DNA from: Pyrenophora tritici-repentis
Taxonomy: Eukaryota; Ascomycota; Dothideomycetes; Pleosporales; Pleosporaceae
NCBI RefSeq assembly: GCF_003171515.1
Contig: NC_089392.1
Span: forward strand, 2,976,001 to 3,040,000
DNA length: 64,000 bases
Direction: 5' to 3'
Part shown: positions 16,480 to 52,183 of the stretch, one piece after another
Layout of the letters: each line of letters starts with the position of its first letter
Numbering within the stretch: the first letter of the stretch is position 1
The notes under the pieces: model-generated
Told to the model about the DNA's origin: nothing
What the model saw: the letters and a program-made list of their open reading frames with translations, nothing else
Database searches by the model: none
Position numbers and translations under genes: made by a program

Positions 16480-16487
16480 AAAAAAAA
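16480..16487 (-). terminator. RNA polymerase III terminator of the tRNA-Asp gene (T8)
   Basis: Eight consecutive T residues on the minus strand begin 15 nt past the 3' end of the tRNA-Asp gene. A run of four or more T is the standard pol III stop, so the tRNA gene appears to keep its own terminator. Confidence 0.8.
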
Positions 16488-16502: not shown

Positions 16503-16638
16503 CTCCCAGACGGGGAATCTACAGCTGTTAGTAAGAAGAATCGAATGGAGAGTCTAGAACTGCACTTACCGAACCCCGGCCTCCGGCGTATCGTCCTGAG
16601 ATGACAAGCCGAAATACTGACCACTATACTATCTGGGA
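16503..16638 (-). tRNA. tRNA-Asp(GTC), interrupted by two introns
   Basis: The 136-nt gene yields a 72-nt cloverleaf after removal of two segments. Acceptor arms TCCCAGA and TCTGGGA pair over all seven positions, with G as discriminator. The D arm is the usual Asp GTATAGTGGTCAGTAT. The anticodon stem is TCGGC/GCCGG around loop TTGTCAC, anticodon GTC at 16603-16605. The T arm is CGGGG-TTCGATT-CCCCG. Segment 16589-16601 (13 nt) sits at the canonical 37/38 intron site, and its GACGA can pair with TTGTC of the anticodon loop, as in typical pre-tRNA introns. Segment 16519-16569 (51 nt) looks like a spliceosomal intron and lies in the T-loop. A T8 terminator follows. Whether the gene still makes functional tRNA cannot be told from sequence. 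Confidence 0.9.
16519..16569 (-). other. Spliceosomal-type intron inside the T-loop of tRNA-Asp
   Basis: Read on the minus strand, the segment begins GTAAGT and ends CTGTAG, with a perfect TACTAAC branch-point sequence 8 nt before the terminal TAG. Its 51 nt match the length of mRNA introns in this window (48-80 nt is common). Removing exactly this segment joins GGTTCG to ATTCC, recreating the invariant T-loop and the pol III B box. It is not at a site used by tRNA introns and has no bulge-helix-bulge partner that I can see. Confidence 0.88.
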
Positions 16639-16654
16639 TGTGGTTTCCTGTTTG

Positions 16655-16775
16655 ATGAAGTAGAGGAGCCACTATTAATATATAATGAAGTGAGAGAATA
16701 GAGACGCAGTTCGACATTGATGAAGTGAGGGAACGGAGACACGGTTGGACATTGATGAAGTGAGAATGGAATATA
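16655..16775. repeat. 35-bp tandem repeat next to tRNA-Asp
   Basis: Units beginning ATGAAGTGAG start at 16685, 16720 and 16755, an exact 35-bp period. The first two are full length and differ at a few positions (GAGACGCAGTTCGACATTG against GAGACACGGTTGGACATTG); the third is partial. A related ATGAAGTAGAGGAG starts at 16655. The array begins only 17 bp upstream of the tRNA 5' end. It has no spacers and is not CRISPR-like. Confidence 0.8.
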
Positions 16776-29310: not shown

Positions 29311-29994
29311 CTAGTCCAAAATAACATGGAAGGTTCTCAAATACGTGTCAGCTGAATACAACGAAATGCTCTGGATAACCGTTACCCACTCACGGTCGCC
29401 TGGCTGGATAAGGTCAGGTCGAGTACGTCTCTTGGAACCTGTGACGACTTTCATGGACCCGATAACGCCTATCTGGAAGCCTGTCTCGTTAAAGTTGTGG
29501 ATGTCCTTGTCGAGGATGCCATACTTGGCTATGGTCTCTTCAACCAGCTTAAAGCACGCGCTAATCACCTCTGGGTCTTCCTGCAGCACTCTCTGCCTAT
29601 CCTTTGGGCGATTGAATGATATCTTAATCTTATCTGAACGCGTTACGAAGCGCGTAGTCCACTTCTTGCCAACAGGCTTCCTACCACGAGCACTCATAAG
29701 TTTATTAACCATATCTTCCACCTCGCACAGCTGGGGCGCAAATCCTCGCGAATTAAGGTTAAGAATATACTGGACAAGCGTCTGCTCTTCGGTAAGAGTG
29801 AGATTATGGCGGGGGTTGCGTAAATCTGGTTTTGAGCAAATTCCGTTATATCGGTCAATTAACGTAGACTTTGGGATTTTAAAGGCTTTAGCAGCGCGTC
29901 GGAGGCTTGAAAATTCGTTATTCTTATATTTAAGAAGAGCTAAATCAATTTTACCCTCTTGATTAGTTGTATTCGCATGTCGTTGTTGGGGCAT
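29311..29994 (-). pseudogene. Truncated Tc1/mariner pogo-like transposase
   Basis: From the ATG at 29994 the frame runs 227 residues. It has a psq-type helix-turn-helix (about 15-52: YKNNEFSSLRRAAKAF, PKSTLIDRYNG), a CENP-B-type HTH (about 65-125: GFAPQLCEVEDMVNKLM, KKWTTRF) and the start of a DDE domain. The motif HNFNETGFQIG has Asn169 where the first catalytic Asp belongs. Homology ends after EWVTVIQ, near 29372, so the rest of the DDE domain is missing. The Asp-to-Asn change is a C-to-T on the plus strand in CpA context, as RIP would make. There are no internal stops. The element is dead and abuts the 3' end of the hydrolase gene. I could not identify terminal inverted repeats. Confidence 0.85.
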
Positions 29995-30189
29995 AGTGTG
30001 AGAAAGATAGTTAGGGTGGTCTTGGCAAAACTGTCTGGGTCGATGGGGTTGTCCGGGTCGATGATCAACTACGTTGTATGGTTTTGATTTTAGGTAGACA
30101 TGGTATAAGGTAGAGTAGAAGAAGGAGAGGAGAAGAAGAGGATGAGGATGGGAAGATATAGAACCTGCCAAGGTCTCATTTATAAACTA

Positions 30190-51786: not shown

Positions 51787-51877
51787 ACAGGACAAGCGTT
51801 CAAGTATGCAAGTTTTGCAGCACAGGTCCATCAGTTCAATCTCATTTGGGACTGGTCATAAAAAAAGCAAAACAAAA

Positions 51878-51996
51878 ACATACAACAGCGGGGATTCGCC
51901 AGTGGTCACCCACCTGACTACTAATCCGCCGGTACACCGCTTGAGTACCGCTGAGCGAACGGGAAGCGCTATTGTCGATGTCCTATGGTCGTATGT
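51878..51996 (-). rRNA. 5S ribosomal RNA, copy 1 (divergent type)
   Basis: The 119-nt minus-strand sequence begins ACATACGACCATAGG and ends GTTGTATGT, pairing over nine positions as helix I. The core TTAGTAGTCAGGTGGGTGACCA and GCGAATCCCCGC regions match fungal 5S. Helix II is ACATCG against CGGTGT, still fully paired though its bases differ from the common fungal GTGTGG/CCACAC (recalled, not searched). A run of five T follows directly as pol III terminator, with more T runs after. Helix V pairs fully (GGATT/AATCC). A weak TATA-like CATAA lies at about -28. Confidence 0.88.
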
Positions 51997-52064
51997 GAAA
52001 GATCTGCTAGCTGCTAGCGTTATGACCAAAGGTAGAGATGGAGGTGGAATGCAAAATGGCAAAA

Positions 52065-52183
52065 ACATACAACAGCGGGGATTCGCCAGTGGTCACCCAC
52101 CTGACTACTAGTCCGCCGGTACACCGCTTGAGTACCGCTGAGCGAACGGGAAGCGCTATTGTCGATGTCCTATGATCGTATGT
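52065..52183 (-). rRNA. 5S ribosomal RNA, copy 2 (divergent type)
   Basis: A second 119-nt copy, same strand, 187 bp from the first. It differs at two positions: C to T at nt 9 (keeps a wobble pair in helix I) and T to C in the GGATT strand of helix V (creates a mismatch). TTTTT follows the 3' end. A clean TATATA lies at -28 to -23. Outside the gene, the immediate 5' flank (CTTTC) and the terminator are shared, but the rest differs, so only the gene and its edges are duplicated. Confidence 0.87.

Follow-up and report, generated by a model that had tools for sequence, protein, structure and literature searches.

A 51-nt segment that interrupts the T-loop of a nuclear tRNA-Asp(GTC) gene in Pyrenophora tritici-repentis is, judging from its sequence, very probably an active U2-type spliceosomal intron in a functional gene, and it would be one of a set, as we identified 17 interrupted nuclear tRNA genes, with 19 inserts between them, on seven contigs of this genome. 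We propose, with good confidence, that these inserts belong to a second class of nuclear tRNA intron, one that is spliceosomal, that lies in the D-arm or T-arm of many filamentous-fungus tRNA genes, and in which the Pol III B box has been relocated to the intron wherever the insertion disrupts it. All copies found of tRNA-Arg(ACG), which should be indispensable to the cell, have such an intron, so translation would depend on the spliceosome, and some of the tRNAs for Glu, Asp, Gly, Gln, Arg and Lys would need both splicing machines.

A tRNA-Asp(GTC) gene with two insertions

The original prediction, made on one stretch of 64,000 nucleotides (hereafter the window), was that a complete tRNA-Asp(GTC) appears on the minus strand only if two segments are removed, and the minus strand from 16638 to 16503 does read this way (Table 1). 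With the 51 nt omitted, ARAGORN calls a tRNA-Asp(gtc) with a 13-nt intron in the anticodon loop, whereas the unspliced 136 nt (16638..16503, minus strand) gave no tRNA, nor did ARAGORN find one in the whole 64-kb window. The shorter segment occupies the 37/38 site and can pair with the anticodon, as had been proposed. The longer one starts with GTAAGT, has TACTAAC 8 nt before its 3′ end and ends in TAG, all exactly as first described. Removing it restores the T-stem, and the joined sequence forms a full tRNA-Asp(GTC) cloverleaf in which 21 of 21 stem pairs are standard.

Table 1. Features of the interrupted tRNA-Asp(GTC) gene, in window coordinates
Feature	Position	Strand	Description
tRNA-Asp(GTC) exon 1	16602..16638	-	positions 1-37; acceptor 5′ strand, D-arm, 5′ part of anticodon stem-loop
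Conventional 37/38 intron, 13 nt	16589..16601	-	includes GAC, complement of anticodon GTC
tRNA-Asp(GTC) exon 2	16570..16588	-	positions 38-57; anticodon stem 3′ strand, variable loop, T-stem 5′ strand, T-loop TTCG
Spliceosomal-type intron, 51 nt, at 57/58	16519..16569	-	GTAAGT...TAG
B-box-like element CATTCGATTCT inside the 51-nt intron	16537..16547	-	TTCGA core 16541-16545, start 27 nt from 3′ end
TACTAAC branch-site motif of the 51-nt intron	16527..16533	-	presumed branch A = 16528
tRNA-Asp(GTC) exon 3	16503..16518	-	positions 58-73; remaining T-loop, T-stem 3′ strand, acceptor 3′ strand, G73
T8 run, presumed Pol III terminator	16480..16487	-	starts 15 nt past gene
Upstream element CTTCATCAAA	16651..16660	-	common to most intact tRNA genes examined

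Four other tRNA-Asp(GTC) genes were found in the genome, each with an intron at 37/38 and none with a T-loop insert. The window gene differs from them at 17 of 72 sites; these differences include six double compensatory changes and one single change, with no broken pair. At gathering cut-offs, the only Rfam matches in the window are two 5S genes, which leaves no match to a Group I or Group II intron there; the inserts themselves are 50-83 nt long.

Three other features of the window were recorded. Several repeats of an upstream element of the CTTCATCAA type lie upstream of the tRNA-Asp gene (16651-16765). The two 5S rRNA genes form a tandem pair without introns at 51877-52183 on the minus strand. 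An ORF at 29311-30171 resembles, by eye, a pogo/Tigger-type transposase that is missing its 3′ part.

Interrupted tRNA genes across the genome

The gene had initially been treated as a single oddity, a view we rejected upon finding 16 further interrupted genes with inserts at several D-arm and T-arm positions, making this a recurrent feature of the genome. The assembly searched comprises 40.9 Mb in 41 contigs. A TOM40 segment of the window matches a P. tritici-repentis cluster at 100% identity over 98% of its length, and Alternaria clusters at 98-99%, which fits a Pleosporales fungus. An exact search for GGTTCGGTAAGT hit 7 places, 5 of them tRNA genes interrupted in the T-loop in the same way: the window Asp gene, two Gly(GCC), one Glu(CTC) and one Gln(TTG). 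Exon searches, in which no splice motif was favoured, yielded a third Gly gene (Gly c), a second Glu gene (Glu b), two Ser(AGA), two Ala(AGC), one Lys(CTT) and three Arg(ACG) genes. The Rfam search recovered a Ser(TGA) gene, and a tRNA model flagged a further Arg(ACG) gene (Arg a) upstream of Gly b. The set therefore contains Asp, three Gly, two Glu, Gln, three Ser, four Arg(ACG), two Ala and Lys. Because 11 of the further genes came from exon or Rfam searches without a splice motif, with Arg a added by the tRNA model, the inserts are more than chance matches to a motif. The first patterns are weak evidence by themselves: GGTTCRGTRNGT occurs at 77 places (43+34) as compared with 169 (81+88) for a reversed control, and HGTTCRGTAAGT at 22, where none of the 20 examined was a tRNA by inspection. 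Among the 75 of 77 GGTTCRGTRNGT occurrences examined, T-stem and acceptor pairing was 13/13 in four and 12/13 in three; five were judged to be tRNAs (the four with 13/13 and Gln), and the other two with 12/13 were rejected by eye.

All gene counts are lower bounds, as the genome search scores best candidates only. The Rfam tRNA search scored 63 of 1172 candidates, and the exon searches recover relatives of the query and best candidates; one of them missed the Glu gene on contig C5 that the motif search had already given. Within these bounds, nine isoacceptor groups are concerned, and 17 of the 33 gene copies found in them are interrupted: 4/4 for Arg(ACG), 3/6 for Gly(GCC), 2/3 for Glu(CTC), 1/2 for Gln, 2/3 for Ser(AGA), 1/1 for Ser(TGA), 2/4 for Ala(AGC), 1/5 for Lys(CTT), where two of the intact copies were judged from match pieces only, and 1/5 for Asp. 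The Thr, Gly-TCC, Met, Arg-TCT, Arg-CCT, Lys-TTT, Leu, Ser-GCT, Val, Ile and Pro genes that we met had no D-arm or T-arm insert. Nuclear genes for Phe, Asn, Trp, His, Cys, Tyr and elongator Met were not recovered in this incomplete census, in which one ARAGORN call of Tyr (locus L022) was read as Arg-TCT instead.

Joining the exons gave a tRNA call by ARAGORN in 17 of 17 genes; of the 17 unspliced sequences, two gave one, those of Glu b and Ser-TGA. Those two remain callable with a weaker 5′ half, where the end of the insert can mimic a poorer acceptor strand. For Gln and three Arg genes ARAGORN misread the anticodon, because the 37/38 intron can be placed in different ways. Conventional 37/38 introns are also present in many of the interrupted genes, the window tRNA-Asp included. 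An assembly or contamination artefact has a negligible probability as the source of the inserts: 17 genes on seven contigs have different inserts at defined tRNA positions, which no single error can give. The Arg exon-intron junction had no match in the viral and prokaryote contigs scanned.

Several loci met in the census are recorded here in their own right. A set of 19 Rfam matches of 84 nt was rejected as tRNA-Asp; these near-identical tRNA-like copies (loci L032-L050) share a common 3′ flank, are scattered genome-wide and constitute a dispersed SINE-like repeat. They recall a tRNA-Ser SINE described for P. tritici-repentis in an earlier study (PMC3538342). On contig C4 (~2537064-2537345; locus L060 ~1295-1576), a tRNA-Arg(ACG) and a tRNA-Gly(GCC) gene, both with T-loop inserts and 37/38 introns, lie 12 nt apart with only T4 between them and are likely a dicistronic pair. 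On contig C1, an intact tRNA-Ser(GCT) is followed after ~16 nt by an interrupted tRNA-Ser(AGA) (locus L168, ~8051451-8051690), and a 45-nt 5′ fragment resembling tRNA-Gly(TCC) is probably a truncated copy (locus L179, 1788412-1788456).

Splice signals, promoter elements and exon conservation

The cloverleaf or a paralogue limits the register of each insert to between one and five possibilities, and in all 19 an allowed register has GT-AG ends. Fourteen of the inserts were found without a donor motif, and all 14 have the GT-AG register; the other five were found with a motif that demands GTAAGT. The GTAAGT donor is present in 11 of 19 inserts (6 of the 14 found without a donor motif) and the looser GTRNG(T/C) in 18, the remaining one being GTTAGT. 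A CTRAY branch site, with its branch A 9-17 nt from the 3′ end, occurs in 18 of 19. Lengths are 50-62 nt in 17 inserts, and 63 and 83 nt in the others. The inserts sit at 9/10 (2), 13/14 (3), the Gln D-arm (1), 52/53 (1), 53/54 (2), 55/56 (4) and 57/58 (6), and none is at the conventional 37/38 position. As a comparison we used 26 candidate mRNA introns from the window, a rough set chosen partly by motif, many members of which are probably false; these are 43-91 nt long, with GTAAGT in 4/26 and a CTNAY branch in 9/26. This comparison shows that the tRNA inserts have ordinary size and signals for this genome, to the extent that so rough a set can show it.

Cyanidioschyzon and other algae offer a precedent for extra introns in nuclear tRNA genes, located in the D-loop and T-loop and tied to bulge-helix-bulge (BHB) folds (PMC3978253), and the inserts could by analogy be ectopic introns cut by the tRNA splicing endonuclease. 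The two sets are alike in location. They differ in that the algal introns are linked to the BHB and the endonuclease, whereas here GT-AG ends occur in 19/19 and 18/19 inserts lack a full 4/4 central helix in any allowed register (by a simplified test of one BHB geometry). Introns of the endonuclease type require neither GT-AG ends, nor a donor consensus, nor a branch site, yet donor and branch site are each present in 18/19. The exception to the lack of a central helix is the 83-nt D-arm insert of the Gln(TTG) gene (locus L063:1340-1640), a gene that also has a T-loop insert. It has GT-AG ends, CATTCGATTC and BHB-like pairing (4/4 central and 4/5 outer helix in one register), lacks a CTRAY branch, and is the least certain of the 19. 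For the set as a whole we consider removal by the endonuclease extremely unlikely. Nor do the conventional 37/38 introns account for the inserts; the two co-occur in many interrupted genes, but place and signals differ, and removing the former leaves the D-arm and T-arm inserts unexplained.

Under removal by the spliceosome, a second question is how the precursors are made. Inserts at 55/56 and 57/58 (n=10) split the Pol III B box, whereas those at 52/53 and 53/54 leave it nearly whole. The TTCGA core of the B box is present in 8 of the 10 inserts that break it, in every case 26-29 nt from the 3′ end; among the 9 that spare it, one has the core (the Gln D-arm insert; Fisher p=0.0045). None of 5000 shuffles had eight inserts with TTCGA, and the core occurs in 1/26 of the rough mRNA introns. 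The two B-box-breaking inserts without TTCGA are those of Gly b and the Gln T-loop. The Gln gene carries the element in its D-arm insert instead, and Gly b may be co-transcribed with Arg a, which it follows at a distance of 12 nt that contains no T-run longer than T4. Relocation of a complete 11-nt B box is not supported: the full consensus match scores 5.9 against a shuffle mean of 5.43 and a maximum of 6.2 in 2000 shuffles, only slightly above the shuffles, so that the TTCGA core alone is enriched. In the window gene, GGTTCRANNCC is split by the insert, which contains the TTCGA core and a match to the full consensus not clearly above shuffles.

The breaking of the B box by ten inserts could also mean that Pol II makes the precursors as parts of longer RNAs from which the spliced tRNA is later cut, which would account for access by the spliceosome. 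Against this, a run of T5 or longer lies within 45 nt downstream of 16 of the 17 interrupted genes, the window gene with its T8 at +15 among them, and the exception, Arg a, is 12 nt upstream of another tRNA. In addition, YATCAA, the upstream element of intact genes, is found within 60 nt upstream of 22/27 intact and 8/17 interrupted tRNA genes (three of the 17 flanks being only 30-40 nt long), as compared with 3.8% of random 60-mers. The TTCGA cores argue in the same direction, as does the absence of TTTT from all 19 inserts, although the latter is weak evidence because only 2/26 of the rough mRNA introns contain TTTT. Together, the T-runs and upstream element favour Pol III, and we regard a Pol II origin as very unlikely.

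The exons of interrupted paralogues are 96-100% identical, whereas the insert cores are 44-69% identical. Interrupted copies show no exon differences within five groups: Arg (71 nt), Gly (72), Ala (72), Ser-AGA (81) and Glu (73). Three of these, Gly, Ser-AGA and Glu, also have intact paralogues with the very same exons, which represent empty sites. The Ser-TGA exons are 96.3% identical to those of Ser-AGA; for the two Ala copies, identity to the intact Ala compared is 94.4%. Some of the identity between paralogues could come from gene conversion. Certain insert-core pairs match no better than shuffled sequence; Ala, four of the six Arg pairs and Gly a-c are among those above the 95% point of the shuffles, and by sequence these seem related. 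The two tRNA-Ala inserts (loci L177 and L178) are clearly related, with 69% core identity; both contain CACCTT and AAGGTT, two motifs with the potential to pair. The inserts do not, however, form an introner-like family of near-identical copies, given the 44-69% identity within groups and a genome-wide search with the window insert plus 5-nt flanks that, among the best candidates scored, gave one match at E<=10 and no second copy.

The original prediction had offered two readings, a tRNA that needs both the endonuclease and the spliceosome, or recent silencing of the gene by intron gain. Exon identity set against insert divergence, together with Arg(ACG), now lends better support to the first and less to the second. 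Silencing would mean that interrupted genes decay while intact paralogues do all of the work; 7 of 9 isoacceptor groups do have intact copies (for example Asp 4/5 and Lys(CTT) 4/5), and the ten broken B boxes would fit. Conserved exons beside diverging inserts do not, and neither do the TTCGA cores and the terminators. Even the window gene, with its 17 differences, has six double compensations and every pair intact. Finally, a genome exon search found four tRNA-Arg(ACG) copies, all interrupted, and a pattern of the joined T-arm, allowed up to 3 mismatches, had no match in the genome. This tRNA decodes CGT, CGC and CGA, which make up 173 of the 3196 codons in six window ORFs. The absence of an intact copy among those found, in a genome that uses these codons, argues against silencing, which we consider quite unlikely.

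We infer that a functional interrupted gene would be expressed as follows. Pol III would transcribe it from the upstream element, the A box and the B box, the last either left intact by the insertion or substituted by the intronic TTCGA element, and would stop at the T-run. Working in the nucleus on this uncapped Pol III product, the spliceosome would then remove the D-arm or T-arm intron, as happens with fission-yeast U6. The D/T elbow could form only after this step, and the ends would therefore be trimmed, the RNA exported and the 37/38 intron cut out by the tRNA endonuclease at a later stage.

Relation to known introns and significance

Among the closest known systems is fission-yeast U6 snRNA, the B box of which is located within its intron. 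In both cases a spliceosomal intron lies in a Pol III RNA, and the B box inside the U6 intron parallels the TTCGA core inside the tRNA inserts. The difference is that U6 is one RNA and itself a component of the spliceosome, whereas here 17 tRNA genes are interrupted at several positions. Two papers describe the U6 intron as an mRNA-type intron in a short Pol III transcript (PMC8917221, PMC10484740), and one of them places it near the catalytic bases and ascribes it to reverse splicing (PMC10484740). In this genome, the two full-length U6 matches have no intron. One locus on contig C2 (1204189-1204631; loci L065 and L067) holds a full-length intronless U6 gene and, ~280 bp on and on the opposite strand, a 66-nt U6-like match that seemingly lacks the ACAGAGA motif.

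Some fungi have spliceosomal introns in rRNA genes, and rRNA is a Pol I transcript; those introns likewise interrupt a structural RNA and differ in that the host is a Pol I product and not a tRNA. A review states that noncoding RNA genes are sometimes interrupted by spliceosomal introns, but its text never uses the word tRNA (PMC2586383). The claim that no such intron had been described in a nuclear tRNA gene was not contradicted by searches of CC-licensed full texts in PMC. The phenomenon is not categorically new, because spliceosomal introns are already known in another Pol III RNA.

In the textbook view, nuclear tRNA introns are the intron class that is removed by protein enzymes only. If the inserts are spliced, the work of the spliceosome extends to tRNA processing, its regular substrates include Pol III transcripts besides U6, and two splicing systems converge on one molecule. 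Genes of this kind can be missed by annotation, as ARAGORN calls no tRNA in 15 of the 17 when they are unspliced. They also provide an intron-bearing gene set with mature RNAs of 71-81 nt (in the groups compared), an exactly known function and intact paralogues as controls, so that intron gain, promoter relocation, and splicing free of cap and coding constraints would be directly testable.
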